DNA of 24,502 bases from a virus: positions 1 to 24,502 of the IMG/VR virus record IMGVR_UViG_3300034111_000733. The stretch is one strand, 5' to 3'. This document shows, piece by piece, positions 15,976-24,102 of this stretch. A program made the position numbers and the translations under genes. The notes beneath the pieces are model-generated. The model saw nothing but the letters and a program-made list of their open reading frames with translations. It searched no databases and was not told where the DNA came from. Each line of letters starts with the position of its first letter. The first letter of the stretch is position 1.

Positions 15976-16108
15976 CTTTATCTCGCTTCTCTTGTGGTGG
16001 ATTCTTCTGCGGAAGGGAAGCCTTTTCTTTGCCGAAAACTCTATCCCAGCCAGTACGAAAGGCTTCCGAGTGATTATTTCTAGGCGAATCTCCTTTGCCT
16101 GCGCTCAT
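15926..16108 (-). CDS. Small phage protein, MSAGKGDSPR type (60 aa)
   Basis: The start MSAGKGDSPRNN, followed by FRTGWDRVFGK, matches a recurring tiny phage protein (M-S-x-GKGD-x-PR ... WDRIFGK) of unknown function. The C-terminal half is strongly charged with many Lys, Asp and Glu. ATG 16108 overlaps the helicase stop as ATGA, so it is translated with DnaB. A role next to the replication fork is possible from position alone. Confidence 0.75.
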   Translation of the reverse strand: MSAGKGDSPRNNHSEAFRTGWDRVFGKEKASLPQKNPPQEKRDKDDKNETHTKRLRDAAR

Positions 16109-17439
16109 CGTTGTAGTTGGTTGAACTTGGTGGTCGGGCGATTGAAAACCATCCTGATGCTCGCGCAGCCGTTGTCGCGGCCCTTCGCCTGAACGATCTC
16201 CACCTCTAAATTCTGCACGGTCTGATCGTTGAGGGTTTGCGTCCCGCCCTCGGAGTTCTCGGTGGGCAGGTGAATGAAGATTACTCTGTCCGCATCCTGC
16301 TCGATGTTGCCCGATTCCCGTAGGTCCGAGAGGCGGGGAATGCGGTTCTCTCTCTCCACTTCCCGGCTCACCTGAGCCAGCAGGATCACGGGGATGCCCA
16401 TCGAGACGGCCAAGTCCTTGAAGGCTAGGGTCGTCTGTCCGATAGCAATGTCCCGCGTCTCTCCCTTGCCGTGCGGGGGCACGTAGAGCTGGAGGTAGTC
16501 GATCACCACAGCCTTCACCTGCATAAACGCCTTGCAGGCTTCGATGCGGGCGGCGATCTGGGAGGGGTTCCGGTCCGAGTCAAAGATGTGCAGGCGCTTC
16601 GACAGGTTGGTCTCAATGTCCTTCAAGGCGTTCTCGAAGGCTTTGATCTGGTGCTGGGAGGCTTGCCGGGATTCAATGGCTCGGACGGAGACGCCCGACA
16701 TCATCCCAGCCAGCCCTTTGCAGACCTTCTTCACCGGCATCTCACGCGAAAAGAGCAGCGTGTCGCCATATCGGGACGCAAAGTGGCGGCAGATGTCGCG
16801 GGCCATCGAGGACTTTCCGACACCCGGACGGGCGGCGATGACGATCAGTTCACCACCAGTCGCGGCACCTAGCTCCTTGGTCATATCCGGCCAAGGCCAA
16901 GTCATTCCAGTCTGCTCGGCTTCCCCGGAGAGAAGCTTGGCAATATCAGCCATCACCTGACTCGCGGCGTCCTTCAGGCTTACCTGCGTAGCCGTCTGGT
17001 TCCTGATCGCGAGAACCTTGCTGATCTTGGCGACGAACTCATCCACCTGTGGCTTCCCGGCTAGGGCCATTTGCGTGGTCTCTGAGGCCACCACAGCCAA
17101 TTCCCGCGCCTGATACGCATCCCGGAGGGCATCTAGGCTATACGCGAACGCTAGCGGCGTAGGCGAGGCTCCTGAGATGTCCGAGAAGTTAACCAGTCCC
17201 CCGCATCGCTTGAGGTCAGGATCGGTCTTCTTCAATTCAGCGCAGATGATGTGCGGCTCCAGTCCAATCCCCCGGATGTGGGCCTCGTTGACCTGTTTCC
17301 AGATCACTTTGGCGAATGCGTTGTAAAACCAAGCCTCTGTGACTTTGTAGTCCAGAGCTTTGAGGAGGGCCGATGGACCCTCGTTCATCACTACCGAAAG
17401 GACGATCCTCTCAGCTTCCTCATTGTGCGGGAGTTTCAT
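16105..17439 (-). CDS. dnaB: Replicative DNA helicase, DnaB-like (444 aa)
   Basis: Residues about 1-110 match the DnaB N-terminal domain (NEEAERIVLSVVMN start, WFYNAFAKVIW helix). The RecA-like C-terminal domain shows Walker A ARPGVGKS at 203-210, catalytic Glu in SREMP at 231-235, Walker B VVIDYLQLY at 311-319, the sensor line LLAQVSRE at 353-360, LRESGNIEQDAD at 373-384 and the arginine-finger region KGRDNG at 419-424. It should form a hexamer that unwinds the fork, loaded by the initiator encoded at 20585-21160. ATG 17439 has an A-rich leader; the stop couples to the next small gene. Confidence 0.95.
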   Translation of the reverse strand: MKLPHNEEAERIVLSVVMNEGPSALLKALDYKVTEAWFYNAFAKVIWKQVNEAHIRGIGLEPHIICAELKKTDPDLKRCGGLVNFSDISGASPTPLAFAYSLDALRDAYQARELAVVASETTQMALAGKPQVDEFVAKISKVLAIRNQTATQVSLKDAASQVMADIAKLLSGEAEQTGMTWPWPDMTKELGAATGGELIVIAARPGVGKSSMARDICRHFASRYGDTLLFSREMPVKKVCKGLAGMMSGVSVRAIESRQASQHQIKAFENALKDIETNLSKRLHIFDSDRNPSQIAARIEACKAFMQVKAVVIDYLQLYVPPHGKGETRDIAIGQTTLAFKDLAVSMGIPVILLAQVSREVERENRIPRLSDLRESGNIEQDADRVIFIHLPTENSEGGTQTLNDQTVQNLEVEIVQAKGRDNGCASIRMVFNRPTTKFNQLQR

Positions 17440-18007: not shown

Positions 18008-18453
18008 GGCTGCTCCTTTCGTGCGGCGTCGATGGCGGCGCGTTCCTCCGGCGTCAGGAGCGCCAGCATCTCCTCTGCGCCGTCGTTGATTTGGCTCAAA
18101 ACCGTCTCTGCATTGTCGCCATCTAGGTTGCTGCGATCTTCTGCCACCACGGCCTCGTCGATGAACTCTTTCCATCGCCTTAGAAGTTCAGTCAGCCGCT
18201 CCTTATCCGCCCGCAGCCGAGCAATTTCCCTCTCGTAAAAACCGGTCTTAACTTTGAGGTCATTGATTTCCTCGCACGCAATCCGCAGGTGATTGCGTTT
18301 TGCCTCAATCTCGTACTCCAGTTGCCTTCTGAGATCGATGCACTCTGCGATATACCAGTCGATGTCGCGCTGGTTTGGTTTTGTCGTTGGGAGTGTCATT
18401 TGATGTAATGCTTTGGCGTGTCGATTAGCCTCGGCGATCAGGTGGTCGCTCAC
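18004..18453 (-). CDS. Coiled-coil hypothetical protein (149 aa)
   Basis: GTG 18453 has AAGGAGG 9 bases upstream and overlaps the previous stop (GTGA). Residues about 35-95 form a strong coiled coil (LRRQLEYEIEAKRNHLRIACE, in part, and YEREIARLRADKERLTELL). The protein ends ERAAIDAARKEQP. The last 9 residues return in the gene at 19058-19411, and the underlying DNA is a 26-bp exact repeat. No enzyme motif. It is probably a structural or regulatory oligomer of early function. Confidence 0.7.
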   Translation of the reverse strand: MSDHLIAEANRHAKALHQMTLPTTKPNQRDIDWYIAECIDLRRQLEYEIEAKRNHLRIACEEINDLKVKTGFYEREIARLRADKERLTELLRRWKEFIDEAVVAEDRSNLDGDNAETVLSQINDGAEEMLALLTPEERAAIDAARKEQP

Positions 18454-18836
18454 GTTGGCGTGCCTCCTTCATTGAGGTGTTGACGCATTATGGCGTCGGC
18501 TCCCCATTCTTTTTCTAGTTTTTCGCGTAGTGCAGAAGCTCGAAAGGACAGCTCGTCTACGTTTACCCCCATCATCTCAATAAATGCTAAAACCTGCTCT
18601 GGCGTCATCGCATCTACAGCATTCTGAATTTCTGCTGTTTCGACATCTTCGCAAGCACTCTCCAACTGTTCCATTGCGCGATTAGTCTTTTCAAACGCAC
18701 GCGCACGCGTGGTGGTTGTCAGTTCGTCCCAGCAGCGGATAGCGTGACGGGCGCGCACTTTCAGCAAAAGAACTGAATCAGTGGGTCCGCTCTTCGTGTC
18801 GTTGTCGGATGTTTCGTCGGATTGGTCTTCGCTCAT
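18450..18836 (-). CDS. Acidic hypothetical protein (128 aa)
   Basis: An acidic, disordered N-terminus (MSEDQSDETSDNDTKSG) precedes a helical body with LLLKVRARHAIRCWDEL and ALREKLEKEWGADAIM. No membrane segment, Cys cluster or catalytic motif. ATG 18836 lies 3 bases after the upstream stop without a Shine-Dalgarno sequence; the leader is A/T-rich. Its stop overlaps the next GTG. Confidence 0.65.
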   Translation of the reverse strand: MSEDQSDETSDNDTKSGPTDSVLLLKVRARHAIRCWDELTTTTRARAFEKTNRAMEQLESACEDVETAEIQNAVDAMTPEQVLAFIEMMGVNVDELSFRASALREKLEKEWGADAIMRQHLNEGGTPT

Positions 18837-18839
18837 AAA

Positions 18840-19061
18840 TTACGCTTTTAGTTGTTCAATTATTCGGCGCAGCTCTTCATTGTCTTCTTCGAGAACTCTT
18901 TTTTCTTCTGTCAGTCCAGAGATGACGTCGCTCAAATCAGAGATAGTTTGATCGAGCTCAATAATGATGCTTTGCAGATTTGAAAAATGCTGAGCAGCTT
19001 CGGCTGCCGCTTGCTCTGCTAGGCTTATTTCACGATCTTGAGTTGAGTTTGTGTTTCTCAC
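18840..19061 (-). CDS. Short coiled-coil protein (73 aa)
   Basis: GTG 19061 overlaps the preceding stop (GTGA) and shares the AAGGAG ribosome-binding site that lies in the 26-bp repeat. Nearly the whole product is one coiled coil, with heptads running from LQSIIIELDQTISDLSDVIS to EEDNEELRRIIEQLKA. Isolated coiled coils of this size in phage early regions may be oligomerisers or partner-binding inhibitors, but nothing specific is visible. Confidence 0.7.
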   Translation of the reverse strand: MRNTNSTQDREISLAEQAAAEAAQHFSNLQSIIIELDQTISDLSDVISGLTEEKRVLEEDNEELRRIIEQLKA

Positions 19062-19411
19062 GGCTGCTCCTTTCGTGCGGCGTTGATTGCGGCCCGCAGC
19101 GCGGCGTTTTCGCGCTCCAGTTGTTTCACCTTCCCGACTAGTGGAGCCACACACGTGCAATGCTGCTCGTCGGATCGATGATCCAATGCGTGCAATACCG
19201 CATTCTCCCAGTCCGCTATTTTTTCACGTAGGGCCTCGTTCTCCGCGAACATCAACTCGCTCTGCCGCTGGCCCTCACACTCCCGGCCATCACAGGTTTC
19301 GCACAGCCAGCCCGTGCGAGCGTTGTCCAATTGCCGTTGGAGCTCGTCCACCTGAGCCTGCACCTTGTAGTAGGCTGAGATGGCGATCATATCGCCGTGC
19401 TCGTTAATCAA
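19058..19411 (-). CDS. Coiled-coil protein with Cys clusters (117 aa)
   Basis: I choose TTG 19411: GGAGG lies 6 bases upstream and the start overlaps the previous stop (TTGA), as at neighbouring junctions. An in-frame TTG at 19438 would add 9 residues but has a poorer ribosome-binding site. Residues about 16-35 and 60-110 are coiled coil. Between them CETCDGREC, and later HCTC, could form a zinc site. The C-terminus ENAALRAAINAARKEQP shares its end with the protein at 18004-18453. Confidence 0.65.
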   Translation of the reverse strand: MINEHGDMIAISAYYKVQAQVDELQRQLDNARTGWLCETCDGRECEGQRQSELMFAENEALREKIADWENAVLHALDHRSDEQHCTCVAPLVGKVKQLERENAALRAAINAARKEQP

Positions 19412-19599
19412 GACACACCTCCAATCTGCTTCATCCAATGGACCGCCCGCAGGGCGCTTTGGCGCATCATCTGCCGGGAGCCCTGCCGGAGGGTTTCGCG
19501 GGTTTCGGTTTGGGCCATCAGTCGGTGGGCTTCCGCCCGTCCGAGGAAGTAGGCGGTCATTGCCAAGGGGCTGTAGAGGGCTGGTCTCTTAGTCTTCAT
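19408..19599 (-). CDS. Small basic hypothetical protein (63 aa)
   Basis: ATG 19599 follows a long A/C-rich leader without Shine-Dalgarno. The product (MKTKRPALYSPLAMTAYFLG, then basic helix ETRETLRQGSRQMMRQSALR) has many Arg and Met and ends KQIGGVS. Its start region overlaps the DUF6378-like gene by 11 bases. It has no motif that I recognise. Two internal segments are helical and amphipathic. Confidence 0.6.
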   Translation of the reverse strand: MKTKRPALYSPLAMTAYFLGRAEAHRLMAQTETRETLRQGSRQMMRQSALRAVHWMKQIGGVS

Positions 19600-19903
19600 T
19601 GTGTGCTGGTTTCTGTGTTTGGTTTCCTACGACGGGGCGTTTTCCCGTCGTCATCCATTGAAGGCACAGGAGATACCCGTGCGCGTCAATCAAATTGTCG
19701 TCCTTCGGCTTATGTGCCTGTCTCCTAAGCTTTAAGGCCGTCATCATCAGCGGAACATCCTCTGCGGTGATGGGGCTGGTGAGTCGGGTATTCAGCAGTC
19801 CCGTCCACATCGCCGCAATCCCGCTGAAGTCCTGATCCGGCGTTCCATACGAGTCATTCCTATCGCCGGTGATCAGTCGAATTGCTTCCTCTGCGTGATT
19901 CAT
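19589..19903 (-). CDS. DUF6378-like phage protein (104 aa)
   Basis: The line AIRLITGDRNDSYGTPDQDF, then IAAMWTGLL, then ITAEDVPLMMTALKLRR and DNLIDAHGYLLCL matches the phage family known as DUF6378: G-DR-x-xYG-P near the start, a W in the helix, then EDV..MM..LK..R and a DN..D..GY end. The fold appears all-helical with conserved acidic residues like those of MazG-type pyrophosphatases, so a nucleotide-related role is possible, though unproven. ATG 19903 overlaps the preceding small membrane gene (ATGA). Confidence 0.8.
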   Translation of the reverse strand: MNHAEEAIRLITGDRNDSYGTPDQDFSGIAAMWTGLLNTRLTSPITAEDVPLMMTALKLRRQAHKPKDDNLIDAHGYLLCLQWMTTGKRPVVGNQTQKPAHNED

Positions 19904-20001
19904 TCGAAGTCCTCCCGGTCAGGACCATTCTCGCTTTGAATCACGATTCCTACGACAATTCCAATCAGGAATCCGAGTCCGGTGCATATTAGTGTCATCA
20001 T
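19900..20001 (-). CDS. Tiny single-span membrane protein (33 aa)
   Basis: The product begins MMTLICTGLGFLIGIVVGIV and ends in a polar acidic tail (QSENGPDREDFE). Residues 3-21 make one transmembrane helix with small residues (GxxxG-like GLGFLIG). The stop overlaps the next ATG (ATGA), and the start ATG follows the A-rich leader AACAAAACAG, the same style of leader as other genes here. No family is known to me. The start could be either of two adjacent ATGs (20001 or 19998). Confidence 0.6.
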   Translation of the reverse strand: MMTLICTGLGFLIGIVVGIVIQSENGPDREDFE

Positions 20002-20015
20002 CTGTTTTGTTGGGT

Positions 20016-20588
20016 TTAACTGACTTTGTATTTCCCGGTGAACTCCAAGGCGAGCTTGAAGTCCTCCAGTAAAACCTTTTCTCCGACCATCCGCGAGAAC
20101 CAGCCCGATTCAAGAGGCAGGCTTTGACCTAGGGCTTTGGCGGTCGGGTGCGTAATGCCGTAGCGGTGCGTCCGGCACAATTCCAGCAGTTGCTTTGTGA
20201 GCACGATCTTGCCCTCAGCATCTGCGGCAGGAAGCGCGGGAAAATCGACCTGATGCTTGGCCCTTTTAGGCTTCGGAGGCGTTGGCATCTTCGGTGCCTG
20301 CTGCTCCTGATGCGGCTTCCCGTGGAACACGCTGTGGCAGCGATGGCACATACAGATCAGGTCGTCCAAATGCTCCAGTTCGTAGCCGCGATGCTCATAG
20401 GTGCGGTGATGCGCGGCGAGGTCCATCTGGCTGTTGCAGACTTGGCAACGATGCCCGGCGCGAGCCTTTACGTGCTTTGACACCAAAGCCCAGTACGGGG
20501 TCTTCAGGTAGTCAGCGTAAGGCATATGAGGCCCCGGACCTTTAGGGAGCGGCGGGTAATACCGCATAAATGCGCGTTGCTTGCTCAT
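20016..20588 (-). CDS. HNH-domain protein with C-terminal extension (190 aa)
   Basis: Residues about 27-90 form an HNH domain: YLKTPYWALVSKHVKARAG leads to CQVC at 48-51, AAHHRTYEHRG at 58-68 and CHRCHSVFH at 81-89, with the His-His and the second zinc knuckle in place. A Pro/Lys linker (95-112) joins a C-terminal helical part (115-190). It is coupled to the initiator gene by ATGA, an order in which such nucleases may nick near the origin or act in recombination. The C-terminal part is not recognised. Confidence 0.8.
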   Translation of the reverse strand: MSKQRAFMRYYPPLPKGPGPHMPYADYLKTPYWALVSKHVKARAGHRCQVCNSQMDLAAHHRTYEHRGYELEHLDDLICMCHRCHSVFHGKPHQEQQAPKMPTPPKPKRAKHQVDFPALPAADAEGKIVLTKQLLELCRTHRYGITHPTAKALGQSLPLESGWFSRMVGEKVLLEDFKLALEFTGKYKVS

Positions 20589-21160
20589 ACGGCAGTCGGA
20601 AACGGGAAGCGAGTGCGCCCGCCATACGGGTTGATCACGGTGGCGTATCCGTCTCCCTTTAGCTCGACCCGGTAATCGTGGTATGCGTTGGGGCTTAGAG
20701 TGGGCTTCAGCGTGCGAAGCATAGCTGCGTGCGCTGCGCCCTTATGCAGCACTCCAAGGTTCTCATCCTTGGGGAGACTATGCATATGGTGCATACCAAG
20801 GTTAGTATTCTTAGTATTATCTAAGTTATGTACCTTGGTGTGCATATGGTGCATACGTAGTTCTACGCCATTAAGGGTAAGAACGTAGGCGTTGGACCTA
20901 GCACTATTTCCCGGCTTAACCCTTATCAGCCCTTTGTCCTTTAAGGACTTAAGGGCGGCAAAGACCGCCCGCACCGAGAGATTAGCCTTCTCAGCAATCG
21001 TCGCGGATGCAGGGTTGCATAGGCCCGTCTGCGCGTTGCGGCAGCGCCAGAGGTAGGAGAGCACCCAGCCTTCTTGCGGGGTAAGCCCGAAATCGAACAG
21101 CCAAGCCGGGATAAACGGCTCACGGCCAGCACACACATCTGTTGAGTAGGTTGTTGTCAC
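20585..21160 (-). CDS. Winged-helix replication initiator-like protein (191 aa)
   Basis: Residues about 26-81 form a winged helix (LTPQEGWVLSYLWRCRN, then ATIAEKANLSVRAVFAALKSL, then KGLIRV), the HTH_36-type domain common at the N-terminus of phage initiators. A low-complexity linker with two MHHMH blocks (103-107, 123-127) follows. The linker DNA contains an origin-like repeat array, as in lambda O, where iterons lie inside the initiator gene. A helicase gene downstream fits the role. The start is uncertain: GTG 21160 has no good Shine-Dalgarno, and GTG 21136 behind an A/C-rich leader is an alternative. A terminator hairpin lies directly upstream. Confidence 0.7.
   Translation of the reverse strand: MTTTYSTDVCAGREPFIPAWLFDFGLTPQEGWVLSYLWRCRNAQTGLCNPASATIAEKANLSVRAVFAALKSLKDKGLIRVKPGNSARSNAYVLTLNGVELRMHHMHTKVHNLDNTKNTNLGMHHMHSLPKDENLGVLHKGAAHAAMLRTLKPTLSPNAYHDYRVELKGDGYATVINPYGGRTRFPFPTAV
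20781..20856. other. Origin-like repeat array inside the initiator gene
   Basis: The 16-mer tgcatatggtgcatac occurs exactly at 20781-20796 and 20841-20856, a 60-bp period. Each copy holds two TGCATA hexamers 9 bp apart. Between them an 8-bp inverted repeat (accaaggt at 20795-20802, accttggt at 20832-20839) encloses a 29-bp stretch, 20803-20831, of which 23 bases are A or T. That stretch is crossed by a tandem ttagtatt (20802-20809, 20811-20818). Iterons plus an AT-rich unwinding segment within an initiator gene is the lambda-type origin plan. Function is inferred. Confidence 0.6.
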
Positions 21161-21168
21161 AAGCAAAA

Positions 21169-21196
21169 GGCCCGCCAAGTGTGTGCTTGACGGGCC
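21169..21196 (-). terminator. Intrinsic terminator/attenuator before the initiator gene
   Basis: On the minus strand an 11-bp stem (one U-G pair) encloses the 6-base loop CACACA and is followed at once by TTTT. It lies 8 bases before GTG 21160. Transcripts arriving from the transglycosylase gene would meet it before the initiator. Confidence 0.75.
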
Positions 21197-21243
21197 ATTG
21201 CTTGAACAACCCACCCGAGGATCAGTCGGGCGAAATAGATTTC

Positions 21244-21259
21244 TCAGGCACACACCTGA
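21244..21259 (-). promoter_or_regulatory. Leader hairpin with loop complementary to the terminator loop
   Basis: The minus-strand sequence TCAGGTGTGTGCCTGA folds as a 5-bp stem with loop UGUGUG. That loop is the exact complement of the CACACA loop of the terminator at 21169-21196. The rest of the 21161-21419 leader holds no convincing gene; the long open frame there reads like non-coding sequence. Confidence 0.5.
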
Positions 21260-21419
21260 TAACGAGACCTTACCATACAGACGGTTGACATCAAGCTTTA
21301 GATGCGTGATTTTGCCTTTAAGCGTGCAAACCTCTGAAGACCAGCTAGATATGTTCGAAGAAAGTTCTAAGAGGGTGAAGGTTTTAACGGTAATAACAGC
21401 TAAAAAACCCGTCATCACC

Positions 21420-21842
21420 CTAGCGTCTCAGGTCACGCTTCCCTCGGTCAGCCAGCCATTTACGGCTGTTAGGGTGAGCCCAACCGAGACTTGGATCATT
21501 CACCATTGATTCAACCTTTAAGGCATATTTCGTGGATATGCCCTTTAAGGCATATTTGGAGTTAGGGCCGTGCCGCCAGATGTTGGCCCGGGTTTGAGGG
21601 GTGTCGGGCAGCCGGTGCCGCGCCACCCACCTGTCCGTGTAGAGCTGAAACAAACGGAAAGACCCGTCGAGCGAGGATCGGTCCTTTAAGGAGGCTTGGT
21701 GGCCCCAGTTTTGAATGTCCTTAACTACGGCAGGCTGGATTTGGGCCGGGCCTACGGCGGAGCCATTGCGGGCGTTCAGGTCGCCGCTGGATTCCATCTG
21801 AACAATTGCGAGGAATAGGATCAGGAGTTGGGATTCGGTCAT
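21420..21842 (-). CDS. SLT-type lytic transglycosylase / endolysin-like (140 aa)
   Basis: From ATG 21842, LLILFLAIVQMESSGDLNAR holds the catalytic Glu at 17 in the M-E-S-S-G line, followed by GPAQIQP at 31-37, FRLFQLYTDRW and the late motif RANIWRHGP. This is the lysozyme-like transglycosylase fold, which cuts the glycan strand of peptidoglycan. There is no signal peptide, so release would need a holin. The frame stays open to TTG 21935 and would add 31 residues made mostly of a hexapeptide repeat. Two further copies (SLKDRS; KYALKGIST with KYALKVES) interrupt the body between conserved motifs. The start is therefore uncertain. Confidence 0.7.
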   Translation of the reverse strand: MTESQLLILFLAIVQMESSGDLNARNGSAVGPAQIQPAVVKDIQNWGHQASLKDRSSLDGSFRLFQLYTDRWVARHRLPDTPQTRANIWRHGPNSKYALKGISTKYALKVESMVNDPSLGWAHPNSRKWLADRGKRDLRR

Positions 21843-21851
21843 AAATGCGGG

Positions 21852-21908
21852 GGATTCACCCTTTAAGGCGGATTTGCGCTTTAAGGGGGATTTGTCCTTT
21901 AAGGAGCT
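21852..21908 (-). repeat. Three tandem 18-bp TTAAAG units, related copies nearby
   Basis: Read on the minus strand, each unit is xCC TTA AAG nnn nAA TCC, coding S-(S/P/A)-L-K-x-(K/E). Single copies lie at 21683-21691 and as a 27-bp-spaced pair at 21515-21530 and 21542-21557 (both plus-strand cctttaaggcatattt) inside the transglycosylase gene. The Leu and Lys codons are always TTA and AAG, while neighbouring codons vary. Confidence 0.8.
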
Positions 21909-21954
21909 TTTCCCCAATAGGCGCTCGCCCGGCAAGCCTCTTCCCGGCGCACGG

Positions 21955-23407: not shown

Positions 23408-23845
23408 TTAGGCAAACCAACGCTTCGCGAGGCCCCGCCCAAAGGTACGAAAGGCAGCTTGCCTTAGCTGCGCCGCGCTTAGGTTAACCCCGGACGCCCA
23501 ATAGCGCCAAAGGACGGAGGCAAGGGCAGAACAAACCGCCGCCCGATACTCCGTGGCGAAGTATTGCCCCGCCGTGTAATTCAGGGCCCCGCCTTCATAC
23601 GACAAGCGACCGCCCCCCGTCAAAGGACGCGCAAGGCTTTCAGCGTCAATCCCCGAGGCTTCAACGTACGCCAGCAAAGCTCGCGCATCTCGCCCTTGCT
23701 GCCCAATAAGGCGACGGTCCGCTTGCAAGGCGCGCCAGCCGTCCAAGTCTGCACGGCCCGGAGAGACGTAATTGTTTACGTCAATGCCGGAACGCTGCGC
23801 CACAAAGGCGCGCAAATCACTAATAATGTCTTCTTTGGTCTTCAT
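23408..23845 (-). CDS. Conserved accessory protein, RAFVAQRSGID type (145 aa)
   Basis: The line IISDLRAFVAQRSGIDVNNY, then YTAGQYFATEYRAAVCSALAS, then FRTFGRGLAKRWFA agrees with a family I recall from plasmids and phages (LR-F-xQRPG-x-x-x-NY ... L-Y-TGQY-x-TEYRxA--xVLAS-LW ... FGRGx-RRWF). The function is unknown. The fold looks all-helical. ATG 23845 follows an A-rich leader (AACAAAACTAGA). It is often found in host-range or anti-defence regions, so an early host-takeover role is a fair guess. Confidence 0.75.
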   Translation of the reverse strand: MKTKEDIISDLRAFVAQRSGIDVNNYVSPGRADLDGWRALQADRRLIGQQGRDARALLAYVEASGIDAESLARPLTGGGRLSYEGGALNYTAGQYFATEYRAAVCSALASVLWRYWASGVNLSAAQLRQAAFRTFGRGLAKRWFA

Positions 23846-23862
23846 TCTAGTTTTGTTTATGG

Positions 23863-24102
23863 TTAACTAACAAAGGGTTGAAAGTCGCTTGCGTAGGCTT
23901 CGAAGGCTTCCGCAGTCCATTCGGAAAAGGTTAGGTCCGAAAGCTTGGCGCACGTAACGGGCCATCCAACTTGCTTTGTTTCGTCATCGGCCCGGCAGAA
24001 AATCGCCAAGGCTTGGCTTCGTATATGGCAAACGGTCAAAGGCAACCCTGCATCACGCAAGGCGCGATTAATGGCACGTAGTGTGCGGCGCTTTTGTTTC
24101 AT
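23863..24102 (-). CDS. Small hypothetical protein (79 aa)
   Basis: From ATG 24102 it reads MKQKRRTLRAINRALRDAGL, then ALAIFCRADDETKQVGW, then FSEWTAEAFEAYASDF. A basic helix comes first, then an acidic, aromatic C-terminal half. The upstream in-frame extension looks non-coding. The leader (AACAAGACAAGCGAACGA) is A-rich. It ends 17 bases before the next ATG. No family recognised. Confidence 0.6.
   Translation of the reverse strand: MKQKRRTLRAINRALRDAGLPLTVCHIRSQALAIFCRADDETKQVGWPVTCAKLSDLTFSEWTAEAFEAYASDFQPFVS

Follow-up and report, generated by a model that had tools for sequence, protein, structure and literature searches.

This analysis indicates that a compact DNA element, consisting of two exact iterons around an AT-rich core and located within the gene of an O-like initiator protein, is probably the replication origin bound by the very protein encoded there. 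The window, i.e. the whole stretch of DNA that was analysed, is a complete IMG/VR record of 24,502 bases and represents a linear, probably incomplete, phage genome, for which the element is likely to be the origin or a principal one. This view builds on the anatomy of the element, constraint at the DNA level, the instability of the core, the O-like winged-helix membership of the protein and the occurrence of iterons in the corresponding position of distant homologues, all of which were observed directly.

The element contains two 16-bp repeats, TGCATATGGTGCATAC, at 20781-20796 and 20841-20856, which are 100% identical, lie 60 bp apart and are each built as TGCATA-TGG-TGCATA. On the minus strand they read GTATGCACCATATGCA, with iteron 1 at 20841-20856 and iteron 2 at 20781-20796, both being invariant in 13 aligned genes. 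An 8-bp inverted repeat, whose arms ACCAAGGT (20795-20802) and ACCTTGGT (20832-20839) are also invariant in relatives, encloses the core at 20803-20831, a candidate DNA unwinding element in which 23 of 29 bases are A/T, which contains a tandem ttagtatt and which shows one substitution among relatives. In the linker of the minus-strand gene the repeats translate as MHHMH, twice. The repeats with their 60-bp period and paired TGCATA hexamers, the inverted repeat, the composition of the core with its tandem octamer and the repeated peptide had all been described in the original prediction, and all were found as described. Exact 16-bp repeats no more than 200 bp apart number just two in the window, and of 60 sequences of 24.5 kb simulated with a Markov model, 1 had any such repeats; the repeat pair is not due to chance. 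A scan allowing 3 mismatches found no third iteron copy in the window. Next to the element (20743-20775, minus strand, after it) there is a CCAAGG-N7-CCTTGG inverted pair together with a degenerate third iteron-like stretch, AGTGCTGCATAAGG; the CCAAGG/CCTTGG arms differ in L013 and L089-L091 and the inner arms do not.

The gene that carries the element (20585-21160, minus strand) encodes an O-like replication initiator of 191 amino acids, with matches to HTH_36 (PF13730, E=1.3e-7) and to phrog_391 (E=1.4e-9). The latter, annotated as 'replication initiation O-like', is the best of the eleven PHROGs matched; ten of these carry a DNA metabolism annotation, and nearly all are described as replication initiation. 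A longer open reading frame extends to 21418, and the GTG at 21160 is the likely start because relatives align from codon 1 and because an intrinsic-terminator-like hairpin (21169-21196, minus strand; an 11-pair stem followed by a T tract) lies just upstream, ending about 10 bases before this codon. In the AlphaFold model a winged helix reaches to approximately residue 96 and is followed by a linker of low confidence and, at the C terminus, a small unit of a helix plus strands; the model is poor overall (pLDDT 60), its best PDB matches by E-value are spurious, and the winged helix alone was used. This domain (approximately residues 16-96; 20873-21115, minus strand) shows predicted helices and wing strands and gives weak Foldseek matches to MarR-type regulators, to the DnaD N-terminal domain 2v79 and to 4pql, the N-terminal domain of a DNA-binding protein. 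PF13730, phrog_391 and the winged-helix model all indicate a winged-helix/HTH domain of the O-like families, and the iterons lie inside the gene after this DNA-binding domain, in the segment that codes for the mostly unstructured linker (approximately residues 99-131; 20768-20866, minus strand), which agrees with the winged-helix gene and linker position originally predicted. It had also been predicted that this gene lies upstream of a DnaB gene, and this is correct as to order and direction, although the DnaB-like replicative helicase (16105-17439, minus strand; PF03796, E=4e-48) is some 3.1 kb downstream rather than adjacent. Genes for an Erf annealase and an exonuclease are likewise downstream of the initiator in the same direction. 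The immediate neighbour is an HNH endonuclease gene (20016-20588, minus strand; phrog_119, E=3e-8), which overlaps the end of the initiator gene, and no P-like helicase loader was found beside the initiator among the open reading frames profiled, which include part of the small ones.

Homologues of the initiator in viral contigs are all close (>91% identical), and a tblastn search at E 1e-5 in 50,697 phage records gave no match. At relaxed E-values the search returned weak matches only (E of 0.009 or worse) to distant HTH_36 initiators, among which a small set of three independent groups has iterons in the linker. For example, the initiators of Pseudomonas phages phi2 and MD8 carry seven iteron copies, mostly with 17-bp spacing, in the segment that follows the winged helix, and since 17 bp is not a multiple of 3 it is the DNA, not the peptide, that is repeated there. 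The same post-winged-helix segment contains four iterons 22-23 bp apart in the initiator of Caudovirus D_HF5_3, whose unit TGCAAAATCTGCA has the TGCA-N5-TGCA layout also seen in TGCACCATATGCA of the window, and four units of approximately 20-25 bp in that of Rhodobacter phage RcDormio. All of these resemble the window in combining the winged-helix class with tandem iterons in the linker after the domain, and differ from it in having arrays of 4-7 iterons, other iteron sequences and weak whole-protein similarity, as well as, in phi2 and MD8, a P-like loader next door. A sequence that differs while its position is kept is the pattern of initiators that would each recognize their own cognate origin. 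The matches in Dulem virus 31, Lietuvens and EBPR podovirus 2 show no comparable linker array and were not counted as homologues, and Rhizobium PPF1 has a short tandem with 12-bp spacing; should a true initiator be among these, it might serve as a counter-example. In genome contigs the initiator was not found, and DnaB matches there are at most 33% identical, so that no host was assigned.

This comparison also bears on the proposal that the repeats are an operator, by means of which the winged-helix protein represses or roadblocks its own gene while replication starts elsewhere. Such a role would be compatible with a winged-helix protein and dyad repeats, and a sigma-70-like match is present in the element on the same strand, about one being expected by chance in the region. 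However, there is no need for an operator to enclose the genome's least stable DNA, the closest families of the protein are replication initiators and the linker iterons of the homologues differ in sequence, which makes this proposal improbable.

The instability of the core is pronounced in nearest-neighbour calculations, in which no 40-mer of the record is less stable than 20793-20832 (0 of 24,463 windows of that size), and the same segment ranks first in the relatives G020 (31 kb) and G021 (24 kb). Of seven initiator-type loci, six have their weakest 40-mer at the core, and in the seventh a single other site surpasses it; if 60-bp stretches are compared instead, the core comes second in the window, after 23814-23873. 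It is notable that the least stable 40-mer should lie in coding DNA of a region with 55% GC, and the iterons are thus accompanied by adjacent AT-rich, easily melted DNA. Cumulative GC skew, which had been put forward as a check on the predicted origin, shows no clean minimum at this locus in the window and seven long relatives; it is uninformative here and lends the origin no support.

Another candidate for the true origin is an array of a 17-18-bp repeat, CCTTAAAGG(RCRAATCC), located upstream of the next gene, in which case the linker element would do something else. The array occupies approximately 21849-21911, with more copies at 21515, 21542 and 21683. Eight of the 13 CTTTAAG sites of the window fall in 20939-21903, a total of 13 being reached by 0 of 100 shuffles, and most close relatives, of either slot type described below, have tandem copies upstream of the slot. 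Against this, the copy number varies and the array is sparse in G012, G011 and G018, the six weakest 40-bp sites of the window do not include it, and its sites are also scattered through coding DNA. We therefore give little credence to an origin at the array, which is possibly more like a set of operator sites of the early operon. Tandem repeats of CCTTAAAGG with trailing RCRAATCC (minus strand) are also seen at 21504-21557, 21683 and 20938; as a set, with the array, they lie upstream of and inside the next gene, the likely true start of which is near 21843.

The 60-bp period of the iterons is divisible by 3, so the reading frame alone cannot distinguish a DNA repeat from a protein repeat, and a synonymous-site test was used for this purpose. 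Thirteen homologous initiator genes, including that of the window, were aligned and collapsed to 8 distinct sequences (haplotypes). In linker codons 100-129, none of 26 degenerate codons shows a synonymous change, compared with 40 of 95 (42%) in the flanking codons 63-99 and 130-188 (Fisher P=5.8e-6) and 48 of 153 in the remainder of the gene (P=1.4e-4). Divergence resumes on both sides of the linker, and the pattern is thus not explained by one recent transfer of the entire gene. It is therefore the DNA, and not the peptide alone, that is under constraint, as the original prediction had anticipated from the repetitive linker, and the linker peptide is, as part of the origin explanation, likely to be a by-product of the conserved DNA. 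The repeats are kept in all 13 initiator genes, and no relative combining a conserved initiator with a linker lacking the repeats, the finding that had been named as contrary to an origin, was encountered among the aligned initiator genes. A scan for the two-iteron pattern likewise found the double repeat in every initiator-type contig that covers the linker. Its extra match, in one unrelated record with 9-bp TGCACCATA repeats, looks like a separate, coincidental array, and a scan with a single-iteron 14-mer was dropped as too unspecific. The iteron-like repeats of this record, IMGVR_UViG_2974705677_000001, are tandem and clustered (L347 13545-13627, L355 113-195).

L089-L091 have the sole base change in the element, a nonsynonymous G to T (K to N) that raises the A/T content of the core, disrupts a potential inner hairpin and lowers the stability of the core (from -1.08 to -1.05 per step). 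This substitution would suit an unwinding element better than a hairpin, and it speaks to the suggestion that the element acts as an mRNA or single-stranded DNA hairpin, for instance as a priming or processing signal, and not through iterons. The entire element of about 78 bp is indeed a quasi-palindrome, and its 86-nt strand folds as single-stranded DNA far better than shuffles (z=-4.6); nevertheless, the iterons are near-palindromic themselves and direct repeats of this kind yield much of the fold for free, while the one substitution disrupts the inner CTTAG/CTAAG stem with no compensation, and a hairpin role is accordingly very improbable. Least probable is that the Met/His repeats are a protein feature, such as a metal-binding site, with the DNA conserved merely via the peptide, given that the frame-keeping period and the exact repetition of MHHMH are set against the lack of synonymous change in the linker and against other HTH_36 initiators that have unrelated peptides at this place and yet have DNA repeats there.

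The origin reading is strengthened by comparison with phage lambda, in which four iterons followed by a 40-bp A+T-rich region lie inside gene O (PMC5043065) and in which two iterons plus the AT region constitute the minimal unit competent for unwinding (PMC7466680). Lambda O/ori-lambda and its lambdoid counterparts share with the window an initiator with a DNA-binding domain and a location of iterons and AT-rich region in the middle of the gene (PMC5043065, PMC7466680). However, lambda has four near-palindromic 19-bp iterons (six in Stx phages) on one side of an AT region of about 40 bp, whereas in the window two 16-bp iterons flank a 29-bp core, and an array of at least four iterons beside an AT region is not present. 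Lambda also uses the P helicase loader, while the phage of the window encodes its own DnaB. The idea that the window follows the lambda plan with other sequences thus holds for intragenic iterons with an AT-rich region and fails for their arrangement. Given that the lambda-type array defines the lambda arrangement and not every intragenic origin, the window is a variant of the known lambda-like intragenic origin and not a member of the lambda type. With regard to mechanism, we infer that the winged-helix protein would bind both 16-bp iterons, that binding on both sides would strain and open the AT-rich core between them, and that the phage DnaB would then be loaded at the opened core, directly or via a partner, to give origin activity. 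It counts against the origin reading that there are only two iterons, set around the core rather than arrayed beside it, that GC skew lends no support, that the initiator homologues in viral contigs are all close and supply 8 haplotypes for the synonymous-site test, and that relatives with near-identical DnaB live without the gene and the element, which are thus not universally required in the group. If the reading is right, a compact example of two iterons around a core would be added to the lambda-type intragenic origins, and a practical rule would be to seek iterons in the linker-coding segment of HTH_36 initiators.

The relatives without the gene reveal that the initiator and its element occupy an exchangeable slot (20018-21279, minus strand), the flanks of which align to these relatives while the slot itself does not. 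When relatives were collected with DnaB as bait, contigs whose DnaB is 92-97% identical and whose flanks align (to window positions up to 20017 and from 21279 on) were found to lack the initiator and to have in the slot about 450 bp with no credible gene. Here a structured RNA of approximately 330 nt takes the place of the initiator (L004 4641-5000, L007 3991-4370, L026 3447-3800 and L030 2977-3300). Among the fetched contigs the initiator is present in 15 besides the window and the RNA-like segment at 21 loci, the two never occurring together; a search with a conserved pattern added eight contigs, again without the initiator. The RNA-type records, among them G012 and G014 with terminal direct repeats, have neither HTH_36 nor phrog_391, and a covariance model of the first 132 positions of the RNA matches RNA-type records only. 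On the DnaB tree the two slot states require 7 changes, compared with 7.3 for shuffled labels, and at least 3 of these changes are forced by well-supported branches; the states are scattered at random, which points to frequent recombination at the slot, and the initiator type as one recent acquisition by one lineage was rejected on the same count. The prediction of an origin in the initiator gene is supported for the initiator-type phages and does not extend to the many close relatives that have a structured RNA instead. The HNH endonuclease may drive the exchange at the slot; its gene is missing from the initiator-type loci L003, L016, L017 and L029. The hairpin with T tract upstream of the initiator has a counterpart at the same place in RNA-type relatives.

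In an alignment of 16 sequences the RNA has 44 predicted pairs, 14 of which show double compensatory changes; 97.3% of cells are paired, with a covariation score of 0.316 compared with 0.141 for shuffled and at most 0.08 for slid alignments. Rfam gave no match on the RNA segment at E up to 1, and no tRNA or tmRNA was found. The covariation identifies a conserved structured RNA in contigs that have no initiator. A sub-threshold Rfam match, to anti-hemB, lies elsewhere in L019. A short motif present in two copies in the RNA varies in concert between phages, being GGTCAG twice, AAAAAGGGGTAGTA twice or AGCGCAA twice, and such paired changes would be expected if both copies bind one partner. Unstable AT-rich DNA is found at or just after the 3' end of the RNA, where it is the first-ranked 40-mer in G012 and G014 and the second in G011 and ranks lower in G018 and G005; this region is partly intergenic, which makes its low stability less surprising.

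Taken together, the observations are most simply read as an origin slot. We tentatively propose, as a reading that falls short of being likely, that the slot is an interchangeable origin, filled either by an O-like protein with intragenic iterons or by the structured RNA with AT-rich DNA, swapped repeatedly and with one per genome; as part of this reading, and with equal reserve, the RNA would represent a previously undescribed class of phage replication RNA. It is from mutual exclusion alone that we infer that RNA and initiator would be functionally equivalent, and it is also possible that the slot is a variable site with unrelated cargo. There is some precedent for an interchangeable slot. 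Mycobacteriophage prophages carry either RepA or a non-coding RNA region, the latter being needed for replication (PMC7157519), and the cluster A parABS prophages thus resemble the group of the window in having an initiator gene in some members and a non-coding RNA region without the gene in others (PMC7157519). In cluster A, replication has been demonstrated for both types, which serve the prophage state beside parABS (PMC7157519), while in the group of the window the exchange takes place at one slot of the early replication operon and involves a strongly covarying RNA with a putative function in replication. Likewise, lactococcal c2-type origins depend on a non-coding transcript, PE1, and the origin region at the start of the early operon, of which there are several types, supports plasmid replication without phage proteins (PMC7150918). 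The c2-type phages, whose origin is a non-coding transcript region, resemble what is proposed for the RNA-type relatives, but no exchange with a protein initiator is described there (PMC7150918). If the RNA truly does the job of the initiator, this would be a second case, beside the mycobacteriophage prophages, of an exchange between protein and RNA initiation in related phages; near-isogenic phages could then be compared directly, and an unclassified phage RNA with good covariation would gain a function.

As a separate observation on these relatives, a ThyX-like gene in G005 (18306-20009; the record of L012) seems, as judged by eye, to be split by a long insertion that keeps the frame and has an HNH-like motif; the insertion may be an intein, and in G012 and G014 the gene is without it.
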